From: Rhodoblastus sp. 17X3
GTDB lineage: Bacteria; Pseudomonadota; Alphaproteobacteria; Rhizobiales; Beijerinckiaceae
Direction: 5' to 3'
Length of the DNA: 64,000 nucleotides
Assembly: GCF_030056575.1 (NCBI RefSeq)
Contig: NZ_JASHHX010000003.1
Coordinates: 124,001-188,000, forward strand
In this document: positions 9,101 through 46,773 of the stretch, in pieces
Numbering within the stretch: the first letter of the stretch is position 1
Layout: the number at the start of each line of letters is the position of its first letter
Translations under genes and position numbers: made by a program
Notes under the pieces: generated by a model
Told to the model about the DNA's origin: nothing
What the model saw: the letters and a program-made list of their open reading frames with translations, nothing else
The model's database searches: none

Positions 9101-9103
9101 GCC

Positions 9104-17260: not shown

Positions 17261-17305
17261 CCGGACGCCGGCGCGCCCGTGCCGGAGGCTCGCGGGGAGG
17301 GGGTT

Positions 17306-18980: not shown

Positions 18981-18990
18981 CCCGCGAAAC

Positions 18991-19026: not shown

Positions 19027-19114
19027 ATTCGGGGACTGTCACGCGAGTTCACGCGCGCATCCTGTGCGCGAGGGGTGTCTTCGCGCGTGTGGCATCGATT
19101 AGGCGGAATGGACC

Positions 19115-21337: not shown

Positions 21338-21406
21338 GCGACACGGCAGTCGCCGCGACGCTTTTTCAATTTGGTTCTCGCAGAACCGATACCCAGGGAG
21401 GAAATC

Positions 21407-23335: not shown

Positions 23336-23337
23336 TT

Positions 23338-24609
23338 ATGCTCCGCCCGCGCATTCCCGCTTTTGCGGCGCTCGTCGTCGCAGCCGCTTTGGCGGCGGCG
23401 GATGCGCGGGCGGCCGTCATTCCTGTGGCCCAGGGAGAGAGCGTTGCAGAGGCGCTCTCCCGCGCTGCGCCCGGTGACACGCTTCATCTGGCGAAGGGCC
23501 TCTTCAAGGGAGGCCTTGTCATCGACCGGCCTGGCGTGACGATCGAGGGCGAGCCCGGCGCAATTCTCGACGGCGCCCAGGTCGGAAACGTCGTCACCAT
23601 CAATGCGCCGGATACGATCCTTCGCGGCCTGACCATTCAACGCTCCGGCCAGACGCTGATCGACAAGAACTCCGGCGTCTTTGTCGACCGCACGGGCGAC
23701 CGTGCGCATATCGAGGGCAATCGGTTTTCCGATAATCTGATCGCGATCTATCTCGACGGGCCGCATGACGCGATGGTCAGGCGCAACGAGATTGCCGGCT
23801 TGCGACAGTTGCGGAGGACCGAACGCGGCCCAGCCATTTCCTTATGGAACACGCCGGGCTCGGCGATCATCGACAATGACATCCGCTCCGGCCGCGACGG
23901 CGTTTTTTCGGTGTCCAGCAGTCACAATATCGTGCGCGGCAACACGTTTCACGATCTCCGTTTCGCCGTGCACTTCATGTACACCAACGACAGCGAAGTC
24001 GTCGGCAACTTCTCCGCCGGCAACGAAGTCGGCTATGTCCTGATGTTTTCGGATCGCCTGGAAGTTCGTGAAAACGTCTCTGATCGGGACCGCGATCACG
24101 GCCTGCTTTTCAACTACGCCAACTTGTCGGGCGTTGAGGACAATGTCGCGCGCGGAAGCGACAAATGCGTCTTTATCTACAATGCGAACAAGAATCGTTT
24201 CACCGGCAACTGGTTCGAGGGATGCAACATCGGCATCCACTTCACCGCAGGCTCTGAACGCAATGAAATTAGCGGAAACGCTTTCGTCAACAATCGCACC
24301 CAGGTAATGTATGTCGGCACGCGGCTGCTCGATTGGTCGGTGCGCGGGCGCGGCAATTATTACAGCGACAATCCGGCCTTCGACCTGAATGGCGACGGAA
24401 TCGCCGATACAGCCTACCGACCGAACAACCTTATGGACCAGGTGATCTGGCGCGCGCCCGCCGCCAAGCTTTTGCTGAACAGCCCGGCCGTCCAGATCGT
24501 GCGTTGGGCGCAGGCGCGGTTTCCGGCGATCCACCCTGGCGGCGTGATCGATTCTGCGCCGTTGATGACGCCGGTTCAGCCATCGTCCCTGGAACGGCTG
24601 ACGCCATGA
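23338..24609 (+). CDS. nosD: NosD periplasmic copper-site maturation protein
   Basis: The 423-residue precursor has a signal peptide (residues 1-25) and a right-handed beta-helix made of NosD/CASH repeats, visible as recurrent NxIxGN-type turns (NRFSDNLIAIYLDGP, NTFHDLRFAVHF, NYSDN). NosD works with the NosFY ABC transporter to build the CuZ cluster of NosZ. It starts 2 bases after the nosZ stop and overlaps nosF. Confidence 0.93.
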   Translation: MLRPRIPAFAALVVAAALAAADARAAVIPVAQGESVAEALSRAAPGDTLHLAKGLFKGGLVIDRPGVTIEGEPGAILDGAQVGNVVTINAPDTILRGLTIQRSGQTLIDKNSGVFVDRTGDRAHIEGNRFSDNLIAIYLDGPHDAMVRRNEIAGLRQLRRTERGPAISLWNTPGSAIIDNDIRSGRDGVFSVSSSHNIVRGNTFHDLRFAVHFMYTNDSEVVGNFSAGNEVGYVLMFSDRLEVRENVSDRDRDHGLLFNYANLSGVEDNVARGSDKCVFIYNANKNRFTGNWFEGCNIGIHFTAGSERNEISGNAFVNNRTQVMYVGTRLLDWSVRGRGNYYSDNPAFDLNGDGIADTAYRPNNLMDQVIWRAPAAKLLLNSPAVQIVRWAQARFPAIHPGGVIDSAPLMTPVQPSSLERLTP

Positions 24610-25508
24610 AACATGAATTCGTGAACCGGGACACGGTGGTTCTGCGGGCGGTCAGCAGGACTTATGGGCGGCAACTCGCCGTCGACGCCGTGGATTTGAA
24701 CCTGCGGGCCGGGGAATGCATCGGGCTTGTCGGCCATAATGGCGCGGGCAAAAGCACGATGATCAAGATGATGCTCGGACTCATCCGCCCGACGCGCGGC
24801 AGCGTTCAGGTTTTTGGAGAAGATCCGTCCGCCGGGGCGGCCGCGAAGGCCCGGCGCGAGCTGGGCTATTTACCGGAAAACGTCGCGTTGCATCCGTCGC
24901 TGACGGGCGCCGAAACCTTGGCCTTCTATGCGCGCCTGAAAGGCCAGCCGGCCGCCGGAAACGAGGCGTTGCTGGAACGGGTCGGCATTGCGGCGGCGGC
25001 GGATCGGCGCGTCGGAACCTATTCGAAGGGAATGCGGCAACGTCTCGGACTGGCTCAGGCTCTGCTCGGAAATCCGCGCGCCTTGTTGCTTGACGAACCG
25101 ACGACTGGCCTCGATCCCGCGCTGCGGCAAAGTTTCTACGAGATCATCGGCGAGCTCCGCCGGGATGGCGCGACGATTCTTTTGTCGTCGCATGCCCTCG
25201 CGGAACTGGAGGGGCAGGTCGATCGCGTCGTGGTGATGAATCGAGGACGGAAGGTCGCCGACGGCGGCATCCCCGAGCTGCGCAGCCTCGCCGCAATCCC
25301 ACCGCGAATTCGATTTCGTGCGGATGGCGTCGAGATCGATAAATTTGCTGGTTGGACGACGATGCTCGACGGACGGTTGGAGCGGGCCTGCGCCGAGGAC
25401 GAAGTCGCCGCCATTTTGCGCGAGCTTCCCAAATCCGCGCGCCAGATCGAGATTCTGCGCCCGACGCTCGATGAACTCTATGCGCAATTCCAGAAGGGGG
25501 CGGAGTGA
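24606..25508 (+). CDS. nosF: NosF ABC transporter ATPase
   Basis: A 300-residue ATPase with Walker A GHNGAGKST (about residues 42-50), signature YSKGMRQRLGLAQ (about 139) and Walker B LLLDEPTTGLDP (about 160). It energises NosY and hands sulfur or copper equivalents to NosD for CuZ assembly. The start overlaps nosD by 4 bases and the stop overlaps nosY by 4. Confidence 0.95.
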   Translation: MKHEFVNRDTVVLRAVSRTYGRQLAVDAVDLNLRAGECIGLVGHNGAGKSTMIKMMLGLIRPTRGSVQVFGEDPSAGAAAKARRELGYLPENVALHPSLTGAETLAFYARLKGQPAAGNEALLERVGIAAAADRRVGTYSKGMRQRLGLAQALLGNPRALLLDEPTTGLDPALRQSFYEIIGELRRDGATILLSSHALAELEGQVDRVVVMNRGRKVADGGIPELRSLAAIPPRIRFRADGVEIDKFAGWTTMLDGRLERACAEDEVAAILRELPKSARQIEILRPTLDELYAQFQKGAE

Positions 25509-26332
25509 GGCAGGTTTTCATCATCATGGGCAAGGAATGGCGCGACGGGATGCGAAACCGTTGGGTGCTGGCGACAACGGCTTTGCTCGCGGCGCTGGCG
25601 CTTACCTTGGCGTTCCTGGGTTCGGCTCCCACTGGCGCGGTCAAGACCGGCGCCCTCGCCGTGACGATCGTCAGCCTGTCGAGCCTGACGATTTTCCTGA
25701 TCCCCTTGATCGCCTTGCTGCTTTCTTATGACGCCATTGTCGGCGAGATCGATCGCGGCACAATGGCCTTGCTGCTCTCCTATCCGGTTGCGCGCTGGCA
25801 GGTGGTGTTCGGCAAATTCTTCGGACATCTCGCAATTTTGGGTTTCGCGACCGTAATCGGCTATGGCTTTGCCGGGTTGGCCCTGCAATTGGCAGGAAGC
25901 GACAATTCCGGCGCCTGGTCGGCCTTCATGTTCATGATCGGGACCTCTGCTCTGCTCGGCGGCGTGTTCGTCGCCATCGGCTATTTCATCAGCACCCTGG
26001 TCCGTGATCGCGGGACGGCCGGCGGCATCGCCATCGGCGTCTGGCTGTTCTTTGTGCTGCTCTACGATATGGCGTTGTTGGGCGGACTTGTCGTCGATCA
26101 GGGCCGCAATGTGACGCCCCAAATGTTGAACGTTTTGCTGCTTCTCAACCCGGCCGATGTTTATCGGCTGCTCAATCTGACGACGAGCAATGATGTAAGC
26201 GGCTTTGCGGGCGTCGCTGGCCTTGGCGCCGGCGCCGGCCTCGGCTCGTGGACGCTTATGGGAGCCCTTGCGGCATGGATGGTCGCGCCGCTGGTCGCAT
26301 CCGTCGCCTTGTTCGCACGGAGACAGGTATGA
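25505..26332 (+). CDS. nosY: NosY ABC transporter permease
   Basis: A 275-residue ABC-2 type permease with six predicted membrane segments (for example WVLATTALLAALALTLAFLG and LTIFLIPLIALLLSYDAI). It begins with GTG overlapping nosF. DRGTMALLLSYPVARWQVV is a hallmark of NosY. It forms the membrane part of the NosFY complex. Confidence 0.95.
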   Translation: MRQVFIIMGKEWRDGMRNRWVLATTALLAALALTLAFLGSAPTGAVKTGALAVTIVSLSSLTIFLIPLIALLLSYDAIVGEIDRGTMALLLSYPVARWQVVFGKFFGHLAILGFATVIGYGFAGLALQLAGSDNSGAWSAFMFMIGTSALLGGVFVAIGYFISTLVRDRGTAGGIAIGVWLFFVLLYDMALLGGLVVDQGRNVTPQMLNVLLLLNPADVYRLLNLTTSNDVSGFAGVAGLGAGAGLGSWTLMGALAAWMVAPLVASVALFARRQV

Positions 26333-26844
26333 AACGCCGCACGCTCTTGCTCGCGTTGCTGGCTGCGCCGTTGCTTGCTTCCTGCAAGCAGAATCGGGAC
26401 GCGGCCAACGCGCCGCCGCCTCGTGAAATCTCCGACGCGTCGGTCGCGCAGTTCTGCGGCATGTCGTTAAGCGAACACGCCGGGCCCAAAGCCCAGATTT
26501 TCATTCGGGGTCTGGCGGCCCCCTATTGGTTCGCCACAGTTCGCGACGCGTTTGCGTTTGTCATGCTGCCGGAGATGCCGAAGGCGATCGAAGCGGTCTA
26601 TGTCAACGACATGGCGCGGGCAAAAAGCTGGGAGCAGCCGGAACCCGGAATGTGGGTCGAGGCGAGGATGGCCTTTTTCGTGATCGGCAGCCGCCGCCGC
26701 AGCGGGATGAACACCGACGAGGCTATTCCATTCGGGAGCGCGGACGCCGCGCGCAAATTCGTCGAGGCGGAGGGGGGCAGGATCGTCGGGTTCGACGATA
26801 TGCCGCGGGATTACATTCTGGCTTCAAACTCGGGAGAACAATGA
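26329..26844 (+). CDS. nosL: NosL copper-chaperone lipoprotein
   Basis: The 171-residue precursor carries a lipoprotein signal ending in LLASC (Cys19). The mature part contains CGMSLSEHAGPKAQIF, whose Cys-Gly-Met binds Cu(I), and WFATVRDAFAFV, both typical of NosL. It delivers copper for NosZ maturation at the outer or inner membrane. Overlaps both neighbours. Confidence 0.93.
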   Translation: MKRRTLLLALLAAPLLASCKQNRDAANAPPPREISDASVAQFCGMSLSEHAGPKAQIFIRGLAAPYWFATVRDAFAFVMLPEMPKAIEAVYVNDMARAKSWEQPEPGMWVEARMAFFVIGSRRRSGMNTDEAIPFGSADAARKFVEAEGGRIVGFDDMPRDYILASNSGEQ

Positions 26845-32363: not shown

Positions 32364-32666
32364 TCAAGGCTTGATCTGGCCAAGCCTGTCGAGCGCGTCG
32401 TCAAGCGCGGCTCCCGTGAAGTGAAATGACAGCAGGACGGTTTCGCCGTTCTTTTCGATGACATCCGCATCCAGGAAAGCCAAAAGGCATGTCGGGTTCT
32501 CGGTCGCGTCTCCGAATCTCAAACGATCGCCCGATTCGATCAGGTCCGCGGGATGAAGCCGCGCGCGCCAAGAGTCTTCTCTTTCCTTCCTGACCAGAAC
32601 GGCTTCGACCCTGATCGAGAGGTCATTTCGGATTCGAACGCCGATGAGGCGATGACCGGGCGTCAT
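32364..32666 (-). CDS. standalone QueA-barrel-like protein (100 aa)
   Basis: The ATG overlaps the ubiX stop (ATGA), so the gene is translationally coupled as third in the ubiD-ubiX operon. The sequence IRVEAVLVRKEREDSWRARL and later GDRLRFGDA...LDADVIEKNGETVLLSFHFTG resembles the beta-barrel segment of tRNA ribosyltransferase-isomerase QueA (VEVLLLRP...W...RPxxxLxxGDRLxFG...AEVL), but the SAM and tRNA parts are absent. It is not a queuosine enzyme on its own; a small accessory to UbiD/UbiX is possible. Confidence 0.55.
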   Translation of the reverse strand: MTPGHRLIGVRIRNDLSIRVEAVLVRKEREDSWRARLHPADLIESGDRLRFGDATENPTCLLAFLDADVIEKNGETVLLSFHFTGAALDDALDRLGQIKP

Positions 32667-33307
32667 TGGCCGCGCTCCATGCGAATGATCTGCTCGGTCG
32701 TGGATGCCAAGGCCTCGATAACGTCGTCGGCTTCGGATCGTTCCAGACCGCCATGCCATTGCGCCGCAACCGGTTCGAACACCTGCAGCAGGTCGATGGC
32801 GCGCCGCGCGATCTGGTCGACGATATCGTCGATGCTGGCGGGTTTCAGATAAAAGGCCGGAACCGGCGGCATGACGATCGCGCCCGCTTCGGTCGCCGCC
32901 GTCATGGCGCGCAAATGGCCAAGGTGGAGCGGCGTTTCGCGCGCCACCAGCACAAGCTTGCGTCGTTCCTTCAGATGAACGTCCGCCGCCCGCACCAGCA
33001 GGTTATCGGCGAGGCAATGCGCGATCGCCGCCAGCGTTCGCATCGAACAGGGCGCGACGATCATCCCGCGCGTCGGGAACGAGCCGGAGGCAACGCTTGC
33101 GCCAATGTCGTCGACGCCGTGCCAGTGGCGTGCACGGGCGCGCAATCGGGACAGGGCTCCCGGGCCGACTTCCTCCGCCAGCGTGCGCTTCGCCGCGCGC
33201 GAAACGACCAGATGGGTTTCGGCGCCTAGATCGTCGAGAATTTCGACGATCCGCAATCCGATTGCCGCGCCGGAGGCGCCGCTTATCCCGACCACGACAT
33301 GAGTCAT
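32663..33307 (-). CDS. ubiX: UbiX flavin prenyltransferase
   Basis: The 214-residue enzyme joins a dimethylallyl group to FMN to make the cofactor of UbiD. The N-terminus MTHVVVGISGASGAAIGLRI holds the FMN-binding GASGA loop, and later VVSRAAKRTL, RGMIVAPCSMRTLAAIAHCLA, and RETPLHLGHLRAMTAATEAGA are UbiX signatures. It overlaps ubiD by 4 bases. Confidence 0.93.
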   Translation of the reverse strand: MTHVVVGISGASGAAIGLRIVEILDDLGAETHLVVSRAAKRTLAEEVGPGALSRLRARARHWHGVDDIGASVASGSFPTRGMIVAPCSMRTLAAIAHCLADNLLVRAADVHLKERRKLVLVARETPLHLGHLRAMTAATEAGAIVMPPVPAFYLKPASIDDIVDQIARRAIDLLQVFEPVAAQWHGGLERSEADDVIEALASTTEQIIRMERGQ

Positions 33308-34827
33308 CGTGGGTCTCCGGGCGCAAAACTGCCGGCGATGCGTGGCCATATCGCGTCGATCCGCTGCCGGACGGCTTCAGACATTTTCAGCGTTTGTCCC
33401 CATTCCCGGTGCGTTTCGCCGCCAATCTTGTTGGTCGCGTCGATGCCGAGCTTTCCGCCCAGGCCGGATTCGGGCGAGGCGAAATCGAGATAGTCGATGG
33501 GTGTGCCCGCAAGAACGGTCAGATCGCGCGAGGGATCCATCCGCGTCGCCATCGCCCACGCAACGTCCTGCCATTTGCGAACATCGATATCCTCGTCGAC
33601 CACGATGATCGTCTTGGTGTAGTTGAATTGCGGCAGCATGCCCCATAGCCCCATCATCACGCGCCGGGCCTGCCCCGGGTAGGATTTGCGGATCGAAACG
33701 ATCGCCATGCGATAGGAGCACGCTTCCGGCGGCAGCCAGACATCGACGATTTCCGGCATCTGCCGACGCATGGTTGGCAACGCCAGATCGTTGAGGACGG
33801 CGCCGATAATCGAAGGTTCGTCCGGCGGCCGCCCGGTAAAGGTCGTCAGATAGACGGGATCGCGCCGCATGGTGATGGCGGTGATCCGCATGACCGGAAA
33901 CGACTCCACGCTGTTGTAATAGCCGGTATGGTCGCCATAGGGGCCTTCCGGCGCGGTTTCGGTCGCGGACACGTAGCCTTCCAGGATGATTTCCGCGTCG
34001 GCCGGGACCAGCATGGGGATGGTCAGGGCGGGCGAGACGCGCGGACGCTCGCCACGAAGCACGCCGGAGAAACGCAATTCCGAGATGGTTTCGGGTAGCG
34101 GCAGGACCGCCGAAAGGATCGTCGCCGGATCCGCGCCGATCGCCACAGCGACAGGCATGTCGTCGCCGCGTCGCCGCCAGGCGCGATGGTGCGCCGCGCC
34201 ACCCCGATGCGCCAGCCAGCGCAGGATCGCCCGATCCCTTCCCAGGGCCTGCATTCGATAGACGCCGATATTCATGCGCGCCGTTTCGTCGGCATGGCTG
34301 TCCGGCGGTCGCGTGATGACAAGGGGCCACGTGATCAGCGGCGCCGGCTCGCCCGGCCAGCAGGTCTGGATCGGCAGTCTGCCGAGATCGACATCGTCGC
34401 CACGCCAGCTTTCCGCTTGGCAATCCGGCCGCGCGACATTTTGCGAGCGCGTGCTCAGCGCCGCGCGCAGCATCGGCCAGCGGTTCATCGCGTCTCGAAA
34501 GCCGTCGACCGGCGCAGGCTCGCGAAGTGCGGCCAGCATCTCGCCGAGTTCGGCGATGCGCGAAAGGCGAACGCCAAAGCCCGCGGCGACACGTTCCGGC
34601 GTTCCGAAAAGGTTGGCGAGCGCCGGCATCCCACCGGCGCCGCGCTCCGAAACCGGGTTGTCGAACCAGAGCGCCGGGCCGCCCGCCACGAGGACGCGGC
34701 GGTGAACCTCGGTCATTTCGTGGACCAGGCCGATCGGCTCACCGATGTGCGTCAAGAGTTTCCGCTGTTCGAGGAAGCTGGCAAAGGCGCGTAAATCGCG
34801 AAACGTGGGCAAATCTCGAAAGCTCAT
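33304..34827 (-). CDS. ubiD: UbiD-family prenylated-FMN decarboxylase
   Basis: A 507-residue member of the UbiD family, which decarboxylates 4-hydroxy-3-polyprenylbenzoate in ubiquinone synthesis. Landmarks: NIGVYRMQ, GPYGDHTGYYN (E-x-PYGDHTG), MRITAITMRRDPVY, and IIVVDEDIDVRKWQDVAWAMATRMDP. Divergent from ubiT across a 22-base palindrome. Given the neighbours UbiX and UbiTUV, an anaerobic ubiquinone role is most likely; other aromatic acids as substrate cannot be excluded. Confidence 0.88.
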   Translation of the reverse strand: MSFRDLPTFRDLRAFASFLEQRKLLTHIGEPIGLVHEMTEVHRRVLVAGGPALWFDNPVSERGAGGMPALANLFGTPERVAAGFGVRLSRIAELGEMLAALREPAPVDGFRDAMNRWPMLRAALSTRSQNVARPDCQAESWRGDDVDLGRLPIQTCWPGEPAPLITWPLVITRPPDSHADETARMNIGVYRMQALGRDRAILRWLAHRGGAAHHRAWRRRGDDMPVAVAIGADPATILSAVLPLPETISELRFSGVLRGERPRVSPALTIPMLVPADAEIILEGYVSATETAPEGPYGDHTGYYNSVESFPVMRITAITMRRDPVYLTTFTGRPPDEPSIIGAVLNDLALPTMRRQMPEIVDVWLPPEACSYRMAIVSIRKSYPGQARRVMMGLWGMLPQFNYTKTIIVVDEDIDVRKWQDVAWAMATRMDPSRDLTVLAGTPIDYLDFASPESGLGGKLGIDATNKIGGETHREWGQTLKMSEAVRQRIDAIWPRIAGSFAPGDPR

Positions 34828-34856
34828 GGCGTCTCGTGCCCCGAAACACGCCCTCG

Positions 34857-34878
34857 CGCCTTAACCATTGTTAAGGCG
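34857..34878. promoter_or_regulatory. 22-base palindrome between ubiD and ubiT
   Basis: Perfect 9-base arms CGCCTTAAC and GTTAAGGCG surround CATT. The inner TTAAC-N4-GTTAA has the arm length and spacing of a Crp/Fnr-family site. It is placed 30 bases upstream of each divergent start, so a single regulator could control both operons. Confidence 0.6.
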
Positions 34879-34907
34879 TGTGAAAAAGACATCTGGTTTA
34901 TGGGGTC

Positions 34908-35465
34908 ATGTCGAATGAACGAACGATTCCACATTTCCCGCGCGTGGGGGCGTTGGTGCTGCGCTTTGCGCCGCTGGCGCCGCTGTCTCTGGCCGGCGCG
35001 AGTCTGGCCGCGAGCCTCGGGCGGCGGCATCCTCGGCTGTTTTCGCGTCTCGGCGAACAGGCGGGGAAAAAATTCCTGATCGATCCGATTGATCTGCCAT
35101 TCGTCTTTCTGCTCGCGCCTCGAACCGGCTCGCCTGGCCTGCGGGCCCTCCGCCGGGGCGAGGCTGGCGTCTGGGACGCGCGCATCGCCGGCCCGCTTGC
35201 CGCCATGCTCGGAATGGTGCACGGCGTTTTCGACGGCGACGCGCTCTTCTTCTCGCGCGATCTGATCATCGAGGGCGACACCGGGGCCGTGCTCGCCCTG
35301 CGGAACGCCATCGACAACGAAGAGATCGATCTGACGCGCGAGGCGGTGGCCATGCTGGGGCCGCTGGAGTCCATGGCCGCGAATCCTGTGCGTCAACTGG
35401 CCGCGCTTGTCGGCCGGTGGAGCGGCGTCGCCGTGACCCGCATCGAGCGCGAGTGGCCGGAATGA
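34908..35465 (+). CDS. ubiT: UbiT, SCP2-domain ubiquinone synthesis factor
   Basis: The 185-residue protein contains an SCP2 lipid-binding domain (FVFLLAPRTGSPGLRALRRG, GMVHGVFDGDALFFSRDLIIEGDTGAVLALRNA). UbiT binds isoprenoid lipids and is required for oxygen-independent ubiquinone synthesis together with UbiU and UbiV. The stop overlaps the ubiU start. Confidence 0.88.
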   Translation: MSNERTIPHFPRVGALVLRFAPLAPLSLAGASLAASLGRRHPRLFSRLGEQAGKKFLIDPIDLPFVFLLAPRTGSPGLRALRRGEAGVWDARIAGPLAAMLGMVHGVFDGDALFFSRDLIIEGDTGAVLALRNAIDNEEIDLTREAVAMLGPLESMAANPVRQLAALVGRWSGVAVTRIEREWPE

Positions 35466-36457
35466 GCGCTGGCCGGACACTCGAACTCATTTGCCCGGCC
35501 GGGACGCCGGCCGCCTTTCGCGCGGCAATCGACGCGGGCGCCCATGCGGTCTATTGCGGTTTCGACGATGAAACCAATGCGCGCAACTTTCCCGGCCTGA
35601 ATTTTTCGCGCGATGAAATGGCCGAGGCAATCAAATACGCTGGCCGTCATGGCGCGAAAACCCTGATCGCCATCAACACGTTTCCGCGCGCCGGAGCTTC
35701 AAGGCTCTGGAGTTCCGCTGTCGACGACGCCATGCGCCTGGGCGCTGACGCCGTCATCCTCGCCGATCTCGGGCTGCTCGATTATGCGTCGCGACGCCAT
35801 CCGGCGCTGCGGCTGCATCTTTCCGTCCAGGCGGCGGCGGCCAACGCCGACGCGATCGCCTTTTACGCGCGTTCGTTCGGCGTCAAGCGCGTCGTGCTGC
35901 CTCGCGTGCTGACGGTGCAGGAAATCGCAGCGATCAATCGCGATATCGAGATCGAGACCGAGGTCTTCATTTTCGGCGGCCTGTGCGTGATGGCCGAGGG
36001 GCGATGCTCCCTGTCGTCCTACGCCACCGGAAAATCTCCCAACATGAACGGCGCCTGTTCGCCGGCCAGCCATGTCGTCTATCGCGAGGAAGGCGGCGAA
36101 CTGGTGTCGCGTCTCGGCGGTTTCGCCATTCATCGTGTCGCGGCGGGGCAGGCGGCGCCCTATCCGACGCTTTGCAAGGGATGCTTTCAAGCTGGCGATT
36201 ATCGCGGCCATGTCTTCGAGGATCCAGCGAGTCTCGATGCAGCCTCCCTGATTCCGGCGCTTGCCAAGGCCGGCGTCACGGCGTTGAAAATCGAAGGGCG
36301 GCAAAGAAGCCGGGCCTATACCGAGGCGGTTGTGCGCAGTTTTCGTCGGGCGCTCGACGCCCATGCCGAGGGAAGGCCGATCCCCGCCAGCGAACTGCGT
36401 GACCTGACCGAGGGACAGCAAACCACCTCGGGCGCCTATCGCAAGACCTGGCGCTAA
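35462..36457 (+). CDS. ubiU: UbiU, U32-family Fe-S subunit of anaerobic hydroxylase
   Basis: 331 residues from ATG 35462. The U32 pattern LELICPAGTPAAFRAAIDAGAHAVYCGF opens the protein. The four cluster Cys are visible in CVMAEGRCSLSS, ...NGACSP and CKGCFQ, which bind [4Fe-4S] in UbiU. With UbiV it hydroxylates the ubiquinone ring using prephenate instead of oxygen. ATGA overlap with ubiT. Confidence 0.92.
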   Translation: MSAGRTLELICPAGTPAAFRAAIDAGAHAVYCGFDDETNARNFPGLNFSRDEMAEAIKYAGRHGAKTLIAINTFPRAGASRLWSSAVDDAMRLGADAVILADLGLLDYASRRHPALRLHLSVQAAAANADAIAFYARSFGVKRVVLPRVLTVQEIAAINRDIEIETEVFIFGGLCVMAEGRCSLSSYATGKSPNMNGACSPASHVVYREEGGELVSRLGGFAIHRVAAGQAAPYPTLCKGCFQAGDYRGHVFEDPASLDAASLIPALAKAGVTALKIEGRQRSRAYTEAVVRSFRRALDAHAEGRPIPASELRDLTEGQQTTSGAYRKTWR

Positions 36458-36483
36458 GGTCCTCTGGATAAGGAGCCCGACAT

Positions 36484-37401
36484 TTGGAGCAGAAAAAATT
36501 CACGCTGACCGTCGGCCCGCTGCAATTCAACTGGCCTGCGGACGCTTTCTCCGATTTCTATGCGCGTGTCGCGGACGAGGCGCCGGTAGATCGGGTTGTC
36601 ATCGGTGAGAGCGTATGCTCGAAGCGGGCGCCCTTTTACGCCAACCGCATTCCGGACGCTATCGAACGACTGCAGCGTGGCGGCAAGAGCGTGGTGTTGT
36701 CTTCACTCATCCTGGTGACGCTGGAGCGGGAACGGCGCGCGGCGCGGGACTTGTTCGCTCAGGCAGAGCATGAGGTCGAAATCGACGATCTCACCCTGAT
36801 GAATTACGTCAAGCCGGAAACGGTCTTTTCGATCGGGCCGATGGTCAATGTCTATAACGAGGCCACGCTGGCGTTCCTGGCGGGAAAAGGCGCGCGTCGC
36901 TTTTGCCTGCCGCCGGAGTTGCCGTTCGCATCGGTCGAAGTTCTGGCCGCAGCGGCGGCCAAATGCGGCGCCGCGTCGGAACTTTGGGCCTATGGCCGAA
37001 TTCCGCTCGCCATATCCGGACGATGCTATCATGCGCGGGCGCATGGGCTGACCAAGGATTCCTGCCAGTTTGTCTGCGCGCGCGACGCCGATGGGCTGAC
37101 GACGCGCACGCTCGACGGCGTCGATTTTCTGGCGATCAACGGCGTCCAGACCCTGTCGCACAAATATTGCAACCTGATCGGCGATCTCGACCGGCTTGCC
37201 AAAGCCGGCGTGACCGGTTTGCGTCTTTCTCCCCACAGCGGCGATTTCACTGGGGTGTGCCGCGCGTTCGCCGATGCGGCGTCGGGGGCCGTCTCGCCTC
37301 GGGAGGGGCTCTTACGGGTGCGGCGGGCGGCGCCGGAAGCGGCGTTTTCCGATGGCTTCCTGTTCGGCGACTTTGGCGCAGCGCCGCTTGCTGGCGCCTG
37401 A
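36484..37401 (+). CDS. ubiV: UbiV, U32-family Fe-S partner of UbiU
   Basis: 305 residues starting at a TTG preceded by AAGGAG. It has FTLTVGPLQFNWP, GESVCSKRAPFY (first cluster Cys), CYHARAHGLTKDSCQFVC and SHKYCNL, which supply the UbiV cluster ligands. It forms the UbiUV complex. The 3' end overlaps the end of the opposing nnrS frame by 155 bases. Confidence 0.92.
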   Translation: MEQKKFTLTVGPLQFNWPADAFSDFYARVADEAPVDRVVIGESVCSKRAPFYANRIPDAIERLQRGGKSVVLSSLILVTLERERRAARDLFAQAEHEVEIDDLTLMNYVKPETVFSIGPMVNVYNEATLAFLAGKGARRFCLPPELPFASVEVLAAAAAKCGAASELWAYGRIPLAISGRCYHARAHGLTKDSCQFVCARDADGLTTRTLDGVDFLAINGVQTLSHKYCNLIGDLDRLAKAGVTGLRLSPHSGDFTGVCRAFADAASGAVSPREGLLRVRRAAPEAAFSDGFLFGDFGAAPLAGA

Positions 37402-41023: not shown

Positions 41024-41713
41024 TCAGATTGGATCAGGCTTCGGTGATCGTTCGCAAAACGATGCAAGGTGCGCGACGTCCTTGACGCGAATCGTGTCGC
41101 GGTAGACGGTCACGCCGACTTCGCTCAATTTCGACAAGGCGCGCGAAAAGCTTTCCGGTTTCATGCCCAGGCGATTGGCGATCAAGGCCTTTTCATAGGG
41201 AAGCGCGATAACCGCAGCACCGCTCGCCGTCGTGATCTGATCGAGAAAAAATTCAGCGATGCGCTGCGGCGCAGACTGCGTCTTCAGTTGCTCGATTTGC
41301 AAGACCAGTTTCTTGAGGTGCTGTGAGGCGGCGGCGAGCATGTCAAAGGCAAGCTGCGGTTGCGCGATGATCTCGCGACGAAGGGCGCTTCCATCGATCC
41401 TGGCGACCCGCGCGGGCGAGACCGCCTCGGCGGAGGCCGGATAGCGGCCGCCGAGGAACATCGCTGCTTCCGCAAAGGACTCACCCGCCGCGAAAATCGT
41501 GACCACGACCTGATCGCCGTTTTCGCGCTCGCGATAGAGTTTGACCCAGCCCTCGATCACCACGAAAAAGGATTCCGCCGGATCGCCCTGCTGAAAAATC
41601 GACTCTCCACGGGCATAGCGCCGGGCCGGGCGGCTTTGCACAATCGAGCGCATGAGGTCGGCGCCCATGGCGCGAAGCAGGGGCGATCGCGACAGGATTG
41701 CGTTGTCATCCAT
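41024..41713 (-). CDS. Crp/Fnr-family regulator (NnrR/Dnr-like)
   Basis: 229 residues from ATG 41713; upstream in-frame residues would cross the palindrome. The N-terminal cNMP-like sensor (RYARGESIFQQGDPAESFFVV onwards) and the C-terminal HTH (LIANRLGMKPESFSRALSKL) are clear. It lacks the four Cys of oxygen-sensing Fnr, so it belongs to the heme or NO-responding branches. A likely controller of the neighbouring nos, ccoG and ubi operons; this is inference. Confidence 0.85.
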   Translation of the reverse strand: MDDNAILSRSPLLRAMGADLMRSIVQSRPARRYARGESIFQQGDPAESFFVVIEGWVKLYRERENGDQVVVTIFAAGESFAEAAMFLGGRYPASAEAVSPARVARIDGSALRREIIAQPQLAFDMLAAASQHLKKLVLQIEQLKTQSAPQRIAEFFLDQITTASGAAVIALPYEKALIANRLGMKPESFSRALSKLSEVGVTVYRDTIRVKDVAHLASFCERSPKPDPI

Positions 41714-41750
41714 CGCGCAGGCGCCGGCTTTGTCATCGGCGGGCGTCAAT

Positions 41751-41767
41751 TTGGAACCTTGTTCCAA
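41751..41767. promoter_or_regulatory. palindrome upstream of Crp/Fnr gene
   Basis: TTGGAAC-CTT-GTTCCAA is a perfect 7-3-7 inverted repeat located 38-54 bases before the start of the Crp/Fnr gene. It could be its autoregulatory site. Confidence 0.55.
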
Positions 41768-41936
41768 TTCGCGGTCTCCCCATCGAACGGGCGGTTCCGT
41801 TGCATGCCGCGCTGTCCCGCGACGCACGCGTTTCGCGGCGGTCTGACATCCGCCGGCGGCAGGCGGTCAACATGAGGCAGGGCGCGATTGTCCTCTTTGC
41901 GCCGCCGCAAACGCTGGCGCAAATCGTCAGAACGGC

Positions 41937-42179
41937 TCAGCCGCCGCAGGCGCCACAACATGTTCCTGCCTCGGCGCTGGCGGCGCGCCGCGCCTGAACG
42001 GGCGGGCAGGCAACGTCGCCATAGGAGCAGAAGATGCAATCACGCCCCGGCTTTGGCCGAAGAACGATCCCGCATCCTTTGCACTCATAGGACGTTTGGC
42101 ATGCGTCCACTGGCATCATTTCCGTCGCGCGATGGCCGCAGGACGGGCAGGTGATCGTCGAGAGAGTGCTTGTCGTCAT
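41937..42179 (-). CDS. small CxxC zinc-ribbon protein (possible own start)
   Basis: An in-frame ATG at 42179 begins an 80-residue unit with ITCPSCGHRATEMMPVDACQ, YECKGCG and RDCIFCSYGDVACPPVQ, the layout of a widespread small uncharacterised protein with GDCCVFCSYGxxxCPP. In most genomes it is a separate gene. Here it is in frame with the flavoprotein, so either read-through fusion or internal initiation is possible. Confidence 0.6.
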   Translation of the reverse strand: MTTSTLSTITCPSCGHRATEMMPVDACQTSYECKGCGIVLRPKPGRDCIFCSYGDVACPPVQARRAASAEAGTCCGACGG

Positions 42180-43070
42180 GGCGGGTCGTGATCCGACTTC
42201 CTGGAAGGCCGCCGATTCCAAAACTCCGTCAAGAACGGAGGAGGGGTCGGAGCCGGTCCTGGGTGCGAAGGGCGACAAGGCGTCGCCGTCCTCCGGCTTT
42301 CCTCGAGGGACGCGCTTTGCTCGTATCCGCCTGTCGTCAAACATGCGACCGTTTCCACTTACGGAGCGCAGTTTGCCGTCCACGAAGGCCTTGTGCGCCT
42401 GAACCAGAGCGGCGCCCGCGTCGATCCGTTCCCTCGCCTGTCTCGCAGTCCTGACGCCACCGACCGAGATCAGCGTCATCGTCCCGACATGGCGTTTGAT
42501 CGCAGCGATCCGCGGCGCAGATTCGCAGACAAGGACGAGGCCGTCCAGAGTCTGGCGCCGCGCCTCAAGGATCGCCTTTGGCAACGGATCGCCGGGCGAG
42601 CCGCCGTCCACCTTGATCAGGAGCGGCGCGCGTCGTCCGGTCTCGGAGGCGCAAAGGTCGCGCACGTCTCGCAGTCTGCAAATCAAGGCATCCACGCCAT
42701 CGCTATTCCCGTCGCGACCATGGCGGGGCGAGGTCAGATTGGCGCAGAGGTAATCGGAGCTGCCATAAACCTGTCGCAGCGCGGCGCTGTAGTCAGTGAT
42801 GACGGCTTCGTCCATTCCCGGCCGCAAACTGCCGAAATTCACTCCAATGCGCAGGCCTTGCGGCCGCAATCCAATCGTCAGCGTCTCGCCGATCGCTATG
42901 GTTCCGAGTTCGATATGGCCAAATCCGGCGAGATCGAGCGCGGCGAGTTTTTCGCCGTTGCGATCGACGCCTGCGGCCACGCCCAGCGGACTGGAAAACA
43001 ACAGGCCCATGGCCGATATGGGGACGTCCCGGGACCGTGTTTGCGCCATCACCTCTAGCCCTTGCGACAC
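41937..43070 (-). CDS. dihydroorotate-dehydrogenase-like flavoprotein reading into zinc-ribbon domain
   Basis: Residues 17-235 have a PyrD-like TIM-barrel: LGVAAGVDRNGEKLAAL, FGHIELGTI, NFGSL, LIKVDG and the FMN-phosphate loop SVGGVRTARQARERIDAGAA. The substrate segment normally NxSSPNT reads NLTSPRHG, and the usual NTT/NTS site is CES, so orotate use is doubtful. No stop separates this from a C-terminal cysteine-rich domain (see 41937-42179). It overlaps the SerC-like gene and lies in the pqqA-D-E operon. Confidence 0.6.
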   Translation of the reverse strand: MSQGLEVMAQTRSRDVPISAMGLLFSSPLGVAAGVDRNGEKLAALDLAGFGHIELGTIAIGETLTIGLRPQGLRIGVNFGSLRPGMDEAVITDYSAALRQVYGSSDYLCANLTSPRHGRDGNSDGVDALICRLRDVRDLCASETGRRAPLLIKVDGGSPGDPLPKAILEARRQTLDGLVLVCESAPRIAAIKRHVGTMTLISVGGVRTARQARERIDAGAALVQAHKAFVDGKLRSVSGNGRMFDDRRIRAKRVPRGKPEDGDALSPFAPRTGSDPSSVLDGVLESAAFQEVGSRPAMTTSTLSTITCPSCGHRATEMMPVDACQTSYECKGCGIVLRPKPGRDCIFCSYGDVACPPVQARRAASAEAGTCCGACGG

Positions 43071-44125
43071 CTGAAATCGTCCATGAACTCCGCCAGCGCC
43101 TGGGCCGCTTTCTGCGGCGCGGAATTGTACAGCGAAGCGCGAAATCCCCCGACAGTCGGATGCCCGCGCAGATTCAGAAGGCCATTGGCCTCGGCCTCGG
43201 CCGCAAACGTCGCGTCCAGGCTGGGCTCCGCCAGATGAAAGCGGACGCTGACGCGCGAACGATCTGGCGCGGACGCTGGACAGGAATAGAAACTGTCCTG
43301 ATCGATGATGGAATAGAGCGAGGCGGATCTTTGGGCGGCCCGCGCCTCAGCCGCCGGGAGCCCCCCGGCGCCGATCAGCCAACGCATCATCTTGCCGGCG
43401 ACGGCGACGGCAAAGGTCGGCGGCGTGTTGACCCTGCTGCGCGCCGCCGCCTGGAGCGCATAATCGAATGGCCCGGGAACAGCTTGGCGTCTGCTTCGGA
43501 GCATTTTTCCGTGAACCACGACAATGGTCAGTCCCGCAATTCCCAGGTTTTTTTGCGCGCTTGCGTAGATCAATCCGAACGGGCCCAGCGGGATCGGCCG
43601 AGTGAGAAAGTCGGAGGTCATGTCGGCGACCAGCGGAATCCTGCCGAGGTCCGGGAATGTCTCGAACTGCAATCCTTCGACCGTTTCGTTGGACGTGACG
43701 TGGCAATAGATGGCGCTGGGAGAAAGCCGCCAGTTCTGCGGATGCGGGAGCGATCGTCCGTCGCCCGTCGCGGCGACATGGATTGCGCCCCAGGGGGAGG
43801 CTGCGTCCCGGGCGCGACGCGACCATAATCCGGTTTCGACGTAATCGGCGCAGTCGCCGTCGCGAAGCAGATTCAGCGGCGCCAGCGAAAATTGTGCGGT
43901 GGCGCCGCCTTGCAGGAAAAGAACATGATGCTCGGCGCTCAGGCCGAGCAATTCGCGAAGGTCCTGTTCCGCCCCGGCTCGAATCGCCTCGAAATCATGA
44001 TCGGAAAAAGGCAGTTCGAGCAGCGAAAGACCGCTGCCGCGCCATTGACGGATTTCCTGCTCCAGTTCCTCACGAACGTCAGGCGGGAGAGAGGCCTGAG
44101 CCGAGGCGAAACTGAAGGAGGTCAT
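43055..44125 (-). CDS. SerC-like class V aminotransferase, altered substrate site
   Basis: A 356-residue PLP enzyme related to phosphoserine aminotransferase. VLFLQGGATAQFSLAPLNLL, the PLP-lysine motif ASAQKNLGIAGLTIVVV and GHPTVGGFRASLYNSAP are SerC hallmarks. The His-Arg pair that binds the phosphate (usual EVSHRSKEF) is replaced by LPFSDHDF, so phosphoserine is an unlikely substrate. It lies in the pqqA-D-E operon, 24 bases from the upstream gene. Confidence 0.75.
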   Translation of the reverse strand: MTSFSFASAQASLPPDVREELEQEIRQWRGSGLSLLELPFSDHDFEAIRAGAEQDLRELLGLSAEHHVLFLQGGATAQFSLAPLNLLRDGDCADYVETGLWSRRARDAASPWGAIHVAATGDGRSLPHPQNWRLSPSAIYCHVTSNETVEGLQFETFPDLGRIPLVADMTSDFLTRPIPLGPFGLIYASAQKNLGIAGLTIVVVHGKMLRSRRQAVPGPFDYALQAAARSRVNTPPTFAVAVAGKMMRWLIGAGGLPAAEARAAQRSASLYSIIDQDSFYSCPASAPDRSRVSVRFHLAEPSLDATFAAEAEANGLLNLRGHPTVGGFRASLYNSAPQKAAQALAEFMDDFRCRKG

Positions 44126-44149
44126 CGCCACACCCTTTCGCACGCGCCC

Positions 44150-44662
44150 TCATGCCCCATGCGCGGCTGTCACCATGAAAAACAGCGTCGCCAGAGACAG
44201 AAAGCTGTTCGTTCGCGACGAGAGAAAGGTGACACGCGTGCAGCGAAGCCGTTCTTCGACTGTCGCTTCGATGTAGCCCAACACCTTCTTCTGGTGCGGC
44301 CACAGGATCAGCCACAAGTTCAGGACCATGATCGTGCCGCACCACACGCCTATACCAATCCACAGCGACGCGCCCGAGAGCATATAGGCATCGACGATCT
44401 CGCCGCGATTCCACAACATGAGCAGGCCGGTCGCCCAGACCAGGAGCGATGCATGGCGGAACACGCCGTGTTCGCGTTTCGACGCGGCAAGGAAGACCTC
44501 GCGCGCGGCGTCGGGCGGATCTTGCGGCAGGATGCGCCGGTAGACCGGATGGTTCACGACATTGGCCCAGTTATGCCCGACCCAGACGAGAACTCCGGCT
44601 ATATGCAGCCATCGCGCCGCCATATCGACGATCGCCAATTGCATTTGCTTCTCACGATTCAA
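44150..44662 (-). CDS. PuuD-like four-helix membrane protein (170 aa)
   Basis: The sequence has four hydrophobic segments, with WLHIAGVLVWVGHNWANVV, HASLLVWATGLLML and CGTIMVLNLWLILWPHQKKV resembling the membrane domain of PuuD urate oxidases and their short relatives. His residues in helices 1 and 2 could bind heme. It begins 15 bases after pqqE. No soluble cytochrome domain is attached. Confidence 0.6.
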   Translation of the reverse strand: MNREKQMQLAIVDMAARWLHIAGVLVWVGHNWANVVNHPVYRRILPQDPPDAAREVFLAASKREHGVFRHASLLVWATGLLMLWNRGEIVDAYMLSGASLWIGIGVWCGTIMVLNLWLILWPHQKKVLGYIEATVEERLRCTRVTFLSSRTNSFLSLATLFFMVTAAHGA

Positions 44663-44677
44663 TTTTGCGAAGTGTCA

Positions 44678-45829
44678 TCACTCGACATCGGCGTGAGACT
44701 GCCGCTTGCGAATGTCGCGCATGATCAGACGGTTGGAGCCGTCCGGCTTTTCGTGTTTTGCACAACCCACCAGCTTGTCGATAATGCTGCGATTGGGCGA
44801 TTTCGCGCAGACCGGATCCGTGTTCGCTGCGTCTCCCGTCAGCAGGAACGCCTGGCAACGACAGCCGCCAAAGTCCCTTTCCTTCTCCGGGCAACTGCGG
44901 CACGGATCCTTCATCCAGGAATCGCCGCGAAACGTCTGGAACGCCGGGGATTCCCGCCAGATCCACGCCAGATCGCGTTCGCGCACGTTTGGAAAATCGA
45001 TGGTCTCGATCAAGCGGGCTTCCTGGCATGGCAGCGCCGTTCCATCCGGGGCGATTGTCAGGTGAATGGCGCCCCATCCGTTCATGCAGGCTTTGGGGCG
45101 ATCGTCGTAATAATCGGGGACGACGAAATAGATCGTCAGCTTCTTGCCGAGACGTTGCCGCGCCTCCTGAACCAGCCGCTCCGACCGTTCGATCTGCTCT
45201 CGCGTGGGCAGCAGCTCAGCACGGTTCAACAGCGCCCAATTGTAATATTGAAGATTGGCGAACTCGACATATTCGACGCCGAGATCCTCGGCGAGTTCGA
45301 TGAATTCCTTCGTTCGTTCGATGTTGTAGCGGCTGATCGGAATGTTCAGCACCATCGGCAGGCCTTCCGCCTTGATGGCGTGCGCAATGGCGATCTTGTG
45401 GTCGAAGACGTCGAGACCGACCAGCGCCTCGTTGAGTTGCCGGTCGGGCGCCTGCAAGCTCAGCTGGACCTGCTTGAGACCGGCGGCCTTGAGGGCGCGC
45501 AGGCGATCGACCGTCAGCCCCACGCCGGAGGTGATCAAATTGGTGTAGTAGCCGAGCCGATCGGCTTCCTCGACCAGTTCCTCGAGATCGCGCCGCAGCA
45601 TCGGTTCGCCGCCGGTGAAGCCGAGTTGCAGGGCGCCGAGCTTGCGGCCGTCTCGCAACACGGTTTTCCATTCCTCGGTGGAGAGCTCGTTGCGATAGCG
45701 CTCGAACTCCACCGGATTGCTGCACCAGGGACATTTGAGCGGGCATTTGTAAGTCAGTTCGACGACAAGCCACAAAGGCATGCCCAAACCATCAAGACTT
45801 AATCCTGATCCATCCTTTGGCACGCGCAT
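44678..45829 (-). CDS. pqqE: PqqE radical SAM/SPASM peptide cyclase
   Basis: PqqE forms the Glu-Tyr carbon-carbon bond in PqqA. The SAM-cluster motif CPLKCPWC is at residues 29-36 from ATG 45829 (start uncertain; ATG 45781 is also possible). GFTGGEPMLRRDLEEL, TNLITSGVGLT, VPDYYDDRPKACMNGWG, PCRSCPEKERDFGGCRCQ and LTGDAANTDPVC match PqqE throughout, including the SPASM-cluster Cys. Located directly after pqqD. Confidence 0.93.
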   Translation of the reverse strand: MRVPKDGSGLSLDGLGMPLWLVVELTYKCPLKCPWCSNPVEFERYRNELSTEEWKTVLRDGRKLGALQLGFTGGEPMLRRDLEELVEEADRLGYYTNLITSGVGLTVDRLRALKAAGLKQVQLSLQAPDRQLNEALVGLDVFDHKIAIAHAIKAEGLPMVLNIPISRYNIERTKEFIELAEDLGVEYVEFANLQYYNWALLNRAELLPTREQIERSERLVQEARQRLGKKLTIYFVVPDYYDDRPKACMNGWGAIHLTIAPDGTALPCQEARLIETIDFPNVRERDLAWIWRESPAFQTFRGDSWMKDPCRSCPEKERDFGGCRCQAFLLTGDAANTDPVCAKSPNRSIIDKLVGCAKHEKPDGSNRLIMRDIRKRQSHADVE

Positions 45830-46079
45830 CCTCCAGAAATGCAAGAATTTTCGGCATGAGATCAGCACGGCCGTAACGCGCCTCGATCACGCCCGCCGCT
45901 GCGGCGATCGACGTCGATCCCATGACGCATTCGATGATGGCGGCGGCCGTTTCGTTGAGTTTTACGATCCCTTCCGGATAGAGCAGGACATGCGCCTGCT
46001 GCGGCTCCTCCCAACGGAAATGATGCGTGGGATTGAGTTCGACCACGTCTTCCAGACGCAAAGGCTTTTCGATGTCCAT
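45792..46079 (-). CDS. pqqD: PqqD peptide chaperone (RRE protein)
   Basis: The 95-residue protein (ATG 46079 after GAGGAG) has the PqqD winged-helix pattern: ELNPTHHFRWEEPQQAHVLL, PEGIVKLNETAAAIIECV and RADLMPKILAFLEDARAKGW. It binds PqqA and presents it to PqqE. It lies 51 bases from pqqA and overlaps the preferred pqqE start. Confidence 0.93.
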   Translation of the reverse strand: MDIEKPLRLEDVVELNPTHHFRWEEPQQAHVLLYPEGIVKLNETAAAIIECVMGSTSIAAAAGVIEARYGRADLMPKILAFLEDARAKGWIRIKS

Positions 46080-46130
46080 CGGCTCCTCGTTGGGCGGGAA
46101 GGAGAGACCTTGCAGCCTCTCCAACTTTGG

Positions 46131-46205
46131 TCAGCGCACGAAGACGTAGGCGGTCACTTCAAAGCCGAGACGGACGTCGCAATAGGCGGGTTCGATCCAA
46201 TTCAT
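46131..46205 (-). CDS. pqqA: PqqA precursor peptide (24 aa)
   Basis: A 24-codon frame begins MNWIEPAYCDVRLGFEVTAY and ends VFVR. It carries the PqqA motif Glu16-x3-Tyr20, the residues joined by PqqE to make the PQQ skeleton, in the context GFEVTAY (usual GFEVTMY). Position just upstream of pqqD and pqqE confirms the call. A Cys at position 9 is unusual. Too short for normal gene finding. Confidence 0.9.
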   Translation of the reverse strand: MNWIEPAYCDVRLGFEVTAYVFVR

Positions 46206-46773
46206 CGCATTTTCCCCGATAGTTGTTGTTGACAGCGGCAAGTTTGGCTCGCCGTTTCAAACATAGGAGCCTTGCGGGGAATGCATCTTGACTTTTGTTA
46301 AACACGTCATGCCGGCCAAAGAGCAGCAAAATGCGGTAAAGGGCATTAGAGGCGCGGAAAGCCGCGTATTTGCGGCAGTTATTGCTTTGCGAAGAATATG
46401 AAGACGAAAAGAAAATGACGAATTTCTTACAATGAAGCGACAACCAGTTGCGGGATCGCAGCGATTTGCGAGCGGAGTCTCCTGATGATGAGATGCCGGT
46501 CCGCCAATAGGCCCAATTCTTTTCCTGCGTTCAGTCTCAATGACCGCGTTCCGAACTCATCTTCGGAAGACGCGATATGGATCAAAATGACTTTGCGCGG
46601 CCGCAGTGTATCTCGCAATGCAGCATAGGTTGCCCGGGCGCCACGTTTGATCGTCGCCGAGGTTCGAATACCGCGCACGCCGGTGGGCGTTTTCCGCAAG
46701 ACGCGCGATCGTGTCCCAAATGGTGGTGTAGCTGACGGTGGCGCCGTCGTTTTCCTGGCTGAGCCGGGATGGG
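46206..46773. other. pqqA promoter side and unrecognised sequence
   Basis: The first 150 bases should hold the pqqA promoter, but no clear -35/-10 pair is seen. From 46427 to 46699 the reverse strand is open for 90 codons; the sequence (TYAALRDTLRPRKVILIHIA) is not recognised, and another frame of the same strand (YTTIWDTIARLAENAHRRAR) looks just as protein-like. It is probably decayed mobile-element DNA. Confidence 0.35.

Follow-up and report, generated by a model that had tools for sequence, protein, structure and literature searches.

A stretch of 64,000 nucleotides from Rhodoblastus sp. 17X3 (contig NZ_JASHHX010000003.1; hereafter the window), whose host, a denitrifier, is related to the purple bacterium Rhodoblastus, has on its minus strand a six-gene operon related to the genes for pyrroloquinoline quinone (PQQ) biosynthesis. 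Read from 46205 to 41937, the genes encode PqqA, PqqD and PqqE, which we call PqqA2, PqqD2 and PqqE2, followed by PuuD', SerC' and DHODH', relatives of the urate oxidase PuuD, the aminotransferase SerC and dihydroorotate dehydrogenase (DHODH), respectively (Table 1). A first-pass annotation of this DNA had described a pqqA-D-E operon without pqqB and pqqC but with three other enzymes, and both the genes and their coordinates were borne out. PqqA2 contains the E-x3-Y motif and passed the Pfam PqqA model (PF08042, 35.6 bits; cut-off 21.1), and PqqD2 and PqqE2 passed TIGR03859 (71.2 bits; cut-off 46) and TIGR02109 (513.8 bits; cut-off 381.35), respectively. The last open reading frame (ORF) belongs to a DHODH-like protein of about 235–240 residues that has lost its stop codon, the frame continuing into a small gene with a GDCCVxC domain (NF041374, residues 304–360). 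The two are separate frames in the nearest relative (L047/L055; L and G numbers denote surveyed loci and genomes). In the window, the GDCCVxC-domain gene (41937–42180), fused in frame through the stop loss, reads GRDCIFC.

Table 1. Features of the operon and of its surroundings in the window. The likely starts of pqqD2, pqqE2, PuuD' and SerC' (46079, 45823, 44644 and 44125) lie inside the longest ORFs and were inferred from relatives. PLP, pyridoxal phosphate; SAM, S-adenosylmethionine.
Feature	Position	Strand	Description
pqqA2	46131..46205	-	24-residue precursor peptide ORF MNWIEPAYCDVRLGFEVTAYVFVR; core Glu-Val-Thr-Ala-Tyr (E-V-T-A-Y), C-terminal -YVFVR
pqqD2	45792..46079	-	peptide chaperone, PF05402; longest ORF from 46124
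pqqE2	44678..45823	-	radical SAM/SPASM enzyme; longest ORF from 45868
PuuD'	44150..44644	-	four-helix membrane protein, kin of the cytochrome c urate oxidase membrane domain; longest ORF from 44662
SerC'	43055..44125	-	class V PLP enzyme, Aminotran_5/SerC match; longest ORF from 44143
DHODH'	41937..43070	-	377-aa ORF, PF01180; short DHODH-like part at about residues 1-240, then GDCCVxC-domain gene at residues 304-377
Crp/Fnr-family regulator	41024..41827	-	adjoins the operon; closest to the curated FtrB model, without reaching its cut-off
ubiX(-), ubiD(-), ubiT(+), ubiU(+), ubiV(+)	32663..37401	mixed	O2-independent ubiquinone synthesis
anaerobic-respiration genes	15472..26844	+	hemN 15472, cytochrome c550 18564, nosR-like 19115, nosZ 21371
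nosD/F/Y/L-like ORFs	up to 26844	+	named by eye; two scanned, no family match
palindrome 1	46288..46301	-	FNR/NnrR-type TTAACAAAAGTCAA, 96 bases upstream of the pqqA2 start codon
palindrome 2	34861..34874	+	TTAACCATTGTTAA, between divergent ubiD and ubiT
palindrome 3	18334..18347	+	TTGATCTTTATCAA, upstream of cytochrome c550 and nosR

We searched the genome that contains the window (4.18 Mb, 99.86% complete) for PqqA, PqqB, PqqC and PqqE, and found four PqqA and, above cut-off, one PqqB, one PqqC and two PqqE. One of the alternatives raised by the first-pass annotation, that pqqB and pqqC lie elsewhere in the genome, proved correct, and their absence from the genome was rejected: both are on contig C1 (pqqB at C1:511688, pqqC at C1:502654), where pqqA, pqqB, pqqD and pqqE are grouped with a PQQ-dehydrogenase gene and pqqC follows about 7 kb past pqqE. 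The window operon is a second, incomplete-looking pqq set. Like the canonical pqqABCDE set it has a PqqA with the E-x3-Y core, PqqD and a PqqE with all cysteines, but it lacks pqqB and pqqC, and PqqE2 is only 43–46% identical to the genome's own canonical PqqE and falls in a separate clade. Two additional lone pqqA genes were seen in this genome (L015, ~7100–7156; L016, ~7060–7116), one about 3.5 kb from a PQQ-dehydrogenase gene and the other with no visible pqq gene in the 15 kb fetched.

By the criterion set in the first-pass annotation, its reading would have failed if another complete pqq set elsewhere went together with neighbours that are not conserved in related genomes. The gene order does recur in other genomes, the neighbours being conserved across three classes (alpha-, beta- and gammaproteobacteria) in 69 distinct loci. 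In all 69, pqqD, pqqE, PuuD' and SerC' lie close together on one strand, PuuD' being present by construction in the 66 loci for which it was itself the search query; PqqA2 was found in 67 and DHODH' in 61. A same-strand M48 protease occurred in 20 of the 69, and an M48 enzyme as the universal protease of the operon was therefore rejected. Sixty loci came from a scan with a PuuD' alignment, one genome per species, and represent Rhodoblastus, Hyphomicrobium, Sedimenticola, Azoarcus, Azohydromonas, Rhodocyclaceae, Stutzerimonas, Pseudomonas and further bins; two more are plasmid-borne, in Methylovirgula sp. HY1 and Acidibrevibacterium fodinaquatile. When 385 Alphaproteobacteria were surveyed, seven carriers besides the window emerged, one of which (G442) is the L081 genome again. 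Among 120 relatives, including the window genome, a window-type PqqE (at least 81% identity) was present in five, all of the window's genus, while any PqqE match at E 1e-60 was present in 57.

The precursor peptide and PqqE2 are themselves distinctive. The motif R[LM]GFEVTAY occurs in 67 of the 69 operon loci, and the 67 peptides are near-invariant, with 15 variants of the last 17 residues and 30 peptides reading FCDLRLGFEVTAYVYVR; PqqA2 was not found in L055, at a contig edge, or in L079. We dropped the GFEVTAY tail as a new core, since PqqA of the canonical Pseudomonas type is arranged in the same way (GFEVTMYFANR). The ten cysteine columns of the radical SAM and SPASM domains are filled in 53–54 of the 54 operon PqqE sequences (of 69) that passed a length filter. 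In a quick tree, all 72 PqqE2 rows fell on one side of a branch (Shimodaira–Hasegawa-like approximate likelihood ratio test 99) from 44 canonical PqqE, drawn from alphaproteobacterial relatives, Pseudomonadaceae and two others; rows were labelled as PqqE2 by an adjacent PuuD', a label that also took in the very divergent second PqqE of L151. Since the three classes are intermixed in the PqqE2 clade and plasmid copies exist, the data suggest that the operon has moved by horizontal transfer.

Several loci depart from the common arrangement. The second PqqE-like protein of L151 (9396–10490, branch 1.57) is encoded between PqqE2 and PuuD', where L147 has an inserted 440-aa ORF (8668–9990). A TauD-family dioxygenase gene directly follows DHODH' in two genomes (L051, 12404–13495; L050, 12541–13632); it was found only in L051 (= L057) and L050 (= L058), and we rejected it as a general trait. 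The Rhodoblastus bin G003 has two operon copies (L047 and L048), one of which begins at a contig edge and has a damaged pqqD start; we rejected the reading of the second copy as a pseudogene, as its apparent stops lie upstream of a later start.

SerC' is homologous to SerC over its whole length (308 bits to PDB 4xk1), and its positions were fixed through alignment to PDB 4xk1 and 3qbo, with residue roles that we take from E. coli SerC and, for DHODH' below, from E. coli PyrD. The PLP lysine, Asp174, Trp107, His328 and Arg335 are kept in 62 of 62 SerC' sequences. In contrast, the Ser-His-Arg-Ser of SerC has become Pro-Phe-Thr/Ser in most (PF[TSGNV] overall, with the Phe in 62/62), and Gly-His-Arg has become GH followed by P, A, S, G, V, K, C or T. 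The His, the Arg and the second Arg (that of Gly-His-Arg), which presumably bind the phosphate in SerC, are each retained in 0/62. The window protein scored above the curated cut-off of NF003764 (382.6; cut-off 253) and below that of TIGR01364 (346; cut-off 443.6). As the His-Arg and the further Arg are lost while the PLP lysine is kept, SerC' looks like an active PLP enzyme, and phosphate binding is not expected of it.

PuuD' gave a partial match to PF06181 (39.4 bits, family positions 162–238), in the membrane domain of PuuD. The PuuD urate oxidase combines an eight-helix domain with a C-terminal cytochrome c, whereas PuuD' is a protein of 164 aa with four long helices (AlphaFold2 predicted local distance difference test, pLDDT, 91.5) and no second domain. 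A Foldseek comparison of its fold with the PDB returned nothing at E ≤0.001 (best 0.33); identification as a haemoprotein by fold was therefore dropped, and we make no claim on haem. H24, E58 and H59 are present in 48 of 48 PuuD' sequences, and H117 and C135 in 47. In 20 members of a paralogue family these sites are instead Leu (24), Ala/Val (58), Leu (59), Asn/Met (117) and Ala/Ser (135). These paralogues are 20 of the 22 broader-family loci, chosen by a motif demanding LH and WP.Q, and the shared H14, W115, P116 and Q118 are thus partly a product of that choice. The five residues, which set PuuD' apart from these paralogues, the group compared, form a candidate redox or metal site. The weaker PuuD' matches in 163 of the 385 Alphaproteobacteria belong to this different family (L123–L144), whose members are about 170–200 aa long, lie near secF in some loci and lack the extra His, Glu and Cys.

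The predicted structure of DHODH' (pLDDT 92.2) best matched the class 2 enzyme PyrD of E. coli (1f76; E 6e-18, template modelling score 0.79 over the query). Both the fold and the motifs of the flavin mononucleotide site are kept, with AAG, Lys and SVGG..LVQ retained in nearly all of 40 sequences. Unlike PyrD, DHODH' is about 100 residues shorter, has lost the Asn-Thr pair (the Asn is absent in 40/40) and usually the catalytic Ser, and has an Arg in place of the orotate-binding Lys in 34/40. It fell below the curated cut-offs for dihydroorotate dehydrogenase (quinone), with 95.6 bits at best against 457 and 92.2 against 200 for TIGR01036, and reached no NCBIfam PyrD cut-off.

The window operon sits in an anaerobic island. 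The nosRZ, hemN and ubiTUV/ubiDX genes all lie within 31 kb of it on one side; NosZ scored 1117 bits (cut-off 625), the NosR-like protein fell below its cut-off, and the island also holds an NsrR-like regulator, as well as a ThiO-like amino-acid oxidase and BluB (38802–40931). A ThiO-like gene likewise persists next to the operon in a number of loci from Hyphomicrobium and its relatives. Homologues of the adjoining Crp/Fnr-family regulator were also found near the operon in L052, L059, L060, L061, L063 and L067. At least two of ubiU, ubiV and ubiT accompany the operon in the fetched stretch of 14 of 71 loci, a set that includes two doublets (L146 = L081, L152 = L069); twelve of the 14 are alphaproteobacterial by name or by kinship to the window, and L062 and L112 are named no further than Proteobacteria. 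Among the 120 relatives, UbiU was present in 29, comprising 5/5 carriers versus 24/115 others (Fisher p 6e-4).

The palindromes TT[GA]A[TC]N4[AG]T[CT]AA (perfect form TTGATN4ATCAA), which we take to be boxes of the FNR, Anr or NnrR type, occur three times in the whole 64-kb window (0.23 expected; three reached in 1/100 shuffles). They stand before nos, ubi and pqqA2, which may be regulated together. We scanned 62 loci and located pqqA2 in 57, the motif and start rule having failed in L061, L068, L073, L076 and L079. A palindrome lay within 300 bases of pqqA2 in 24 of the 57, 14 of them perfect, versus 38/840 other ORFs, which include the operon's own genes and come from the same related loci, and 0/17 canonical pqqA genes there. 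The corresponding Fisher p values (2e-15 and 7e-4) are too small, since the loci are related. In Pseudomonas the box is placed at -173 to -178; in loci of Rhodoblastus, Hyphomicrobium and Methylovirgula, in Acidibrevibacterium-like loci and in a single locus from the gammaproteobacteria, it falls at -90 to -138. None was found at the three other pqqA genes of the window genome.

A cluster of this kind has been named before. Li, Schmitte, Torkel and Dahl (2025; PMC12423496; statements on this and the other papers cited refer to the sections available) list Hden_0548–0553 of Hyphomicrobium denitrificans as 'pqqAED-puuD-serC-pyrD', together with further clusters, and offer the speculation, based on the genes present and their co-regulation, that its products complete PQQ synthesis when O2 is absent. 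In mutants of SoxR and sHdrR its transcripts drop along with those for denitrification and ubiXDTUV. The authors note that PuuD- and PyrD-like enzymes act on heterocycles resembling PQQ precursors, that PqqC requires O2, and that no PQQ is formed anaerobically by K. pneumoniae and P. aeruginosa, which have just the canonical genes (PMC12423496). The window contains the same six genes, likewise adjoining ubiXDTUV and denitrification genes. Both the cluster and the idea of an O2-free PQQ route are hence already in print, its function there being speculative. What we add to the available sections of that paper is the Rhodoblastus-like host, the 69 loci, the conservation of PqqA2, the residues of SerC', PuuD' and DHODH', the palindromes, carriers without PqqB and PqqC, single-PqqE genomes, the M48 variants and the plasmid copies. 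The cluster does not appear in the available sections of PMC4562309, PMC12997753 or PMC10531626, and a 2026 review describes the PQQ pathway as strictly O2-dependent and confined to aerobic settings or supplied PQQ (PMC12997753).

To place PqqE2 among the other pqq genes of its hosts, we counted PqqB, PqqC and PqqE in 49 carrier genomes, drawn from 59 loci (L056–L114) with ten Pseudomonas and Stutzerimonas loci left out; L055 shares its genome with L056. PqqE2 is retained beside another PqqE in 43 of the 49. Three genomes, a Sedimenticola thiotaurini BK-3 bin and an S. hydrogenitrophicus isolate (G135 and G138) and the bin G164, have PqqE2 as their sole PqqE, with one PqqB and one PqqC. If these three make PQQ, PqqE2 yields the ordinary crosslinked precursor. 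In L071 and L110, pqqB and pqqC lie directly upstream of pqqA2 in the same direction. Five genomes carry the operon without PqqB and PqqC (G129, G133, G152, G348, 88% complete, and G404, 96% complete with 8% contamination), none of them closed; G133 has the operon and a PQQ-dehydrogenase gene on one contig, and the partial second PqqE of G152 suggests that this bin is incomplete. PQQ-dehydrogenases were present in 14 of 15 carriers tested.

We consider it probable that the operon encodes an O2-independent branch of PQQ biosynthesis, acting when O2 is absent. This proposal starts from what can be read in the DNA, namely the gene order and its conservation, the PqqE2 clade, the residue losses and gains, the palindromes, the island and the canonical set elsewhere. 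The palindromes and the island, together with the three single-PqqE genomes that have PqqB and PqqC, favour the usual crosslinked precursor and synthesis of PQQ by a route free of oxygen. To make PQQ, the ring has to be hydroxylated twice and two rings closed, with a dehydrogenation beside a carboxylate after each closure; PqqB, like PqqC, needs O2. In the route that we propose, PqqE2 and PqqD2 would introduce into PqqA2 the Glu-Tyr crosslink that canonical PqqE makes, and the product would be released by the M48 protease where the operon has one and by other proteases elsewhere. Without O2, PqqB (hydroxylation) and PqqC (an eight-electron oxidation) could not work, and PuuD', SerC' and DHODH' would replace them. 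PuuD' would withdraw ring electrons into the respiratory chain while water adds, the net chemistry of PuuD on urate, and could oxidise the ring twice in this way. DHODH' would dehydrogenate NH-CH(COO-)-CH2 to NH-C(COO-)=CH, as DHODH does, a step of the kind that both new PQQ rings need. SerC' may act on the amino-acid end of the freed Glu-Tyr unit, perhaps through a reversible transamination that activates the side chain. The substrates, the reaction order, the electron acceptor and PQQ itself as the product are what we infer. For PuuD, urate oxidation apparently proceeds without H2O2 and probably via the cytochrome c (PMC4562309).

A number of observations count against this proposal. PqqC is present in 46 of the 49 carriers, and every candidate for a stand-alone route is a bin whose completeness is uncertain; the counts in the three single-PqqE genomes cover PqqE, PqqB and PqqC genome-wide, not PqqA or PqqD. 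A transaminase is unexpected and has no evident place in PQQ synthesis, as PQQ keeps both nitrogens. DHODH' was not found in 8 of the 69 loci (one of them, L059, near a contig end) and so cannot be needed everywhere, and its catalytic Ser is kept in 13/40. The palindrome was found in none of the Stutzerimonas loci among the 57 with a located pqqA2, and within the genus UbiU shows no link with the operon (5/5 carriers versus 5/6 non-carriers). BluB and the ThiO-like oxidase of the island presumably use O2, judging by family function. For PuuD, a superoxide route, which would use O2, is also discussed (PMC4562309), and the literature searched, in the sections available, yielded no biochemistry on the cluster.

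An alternative that we regard as rather unlikely, and which the first-pass annotation had also raised, is that, in the absence of O2, the operon serves to build another redox cofactor from the Glu-Tyr unit, with SerC' removing one amine for good and DHODH' and PuuD' oxidising the rest. There is a precedent in mycofactocin, where a radical SAM enzyme crosslinks a short peptide and a flavoenzyme then oxidatively deaminates the freed, crosslinked dipeptide; the mycofactocin precursor is different, and we noticed no mycofactocin gene beside the operon, no genome search for such genes having been made. The intact PLP lysine of all 62 SerC' and the invariant Phe at the His of the SerC Ser-His-Arg would suit a different cofactor, as would the distance of SerC' and DHODH' from the housekeeping forms and a PqqE clade of its own kept beside another PqqE in most carriers. 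However, where PqqE2 is the sole PqqE beside PqqB and PqqC, as in both Sedimenticola genomes and G164, its product must also serve PQQ if PQQ is made. Known-type PQQ-dehydrogenases, moreover, lie in the fetched flanks of 11 loci, and no new quinoprotein was found among the recurrent neighbour families that received a name, several others having none. A different cofactor is not the simplest reading. In its most specific form, which we think unlikely, it would be a second peptide-derived quinone for anoxic life: SerC' would transaminate the Glu-Tyr crosslink such that one PQQ ring nitrogen is replaced, and PuuD' would hydroxylate with water, its H24, E58, H59, H117 and C135 forming a new membrane redox or metal centre. 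If so, each carrier would have a pair of related cofactors, one used in air and the other with nitrate.

The presence of PqqC in nearly all carriers, and of pqqB and pqqC directly upstream in L071 and L110, would also fit a role for PuuD', SerC' and DHODH' in modifying or recycling PQQ or intermediates such as AHQQ instead of replacing PqqB and PqqC, with pqqADE adding dosage under anaerobic control. We find this improbable, as the operon persists in the five bins that lack PqqB and PqqC, the palindromes are of the FNR/NnrR type, and PqqC needs O2 (PMC12423496). Finally, the lost stop of DHODH' in the window and the damaged second copy in G003 might suggest that the genes came together by chance, an additional pqqADE set decaying next to genes that have nothing to do with it. 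This is very hard to reconcile with the same genes standing together in 69/69 loci of three classes, a single PqqE clade and a near-invariant PqqA2.

Beyond the operon, the window contains a likely gene cluster for a ribosomally synthesised and post-translationally modified peptide (RiPP) at 47523–51021, with an 81-aa Ala-rich small ORF and two radical SAM proteins. One radical SAM protein of this cluster is nearest to YydG, below cut-off, and the other is a RiPP radical SAM C-methyltransferase (TIGR03975, 530.8 bits; cut-off 281.85). In Methylovirgula HY1, a CbpA/CbpB modified-peptide pair also adjoins the operon.

PQQ-dehydrogenases operate in the absence of air in denitrifying methylotrophs and in phototrophs that use alcohols, and the characterised route to the cofactor needs O2 at PqqC; the window operon names candidate genes for a route that does not. 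If the O2-independent branch proposed here is correct, PQQ would have an O2-free twin of its biosynthetic pathway, as ubiquinone has in UbiTUV and haem in HemN, built from three repurposed enzymes with testable substrates.

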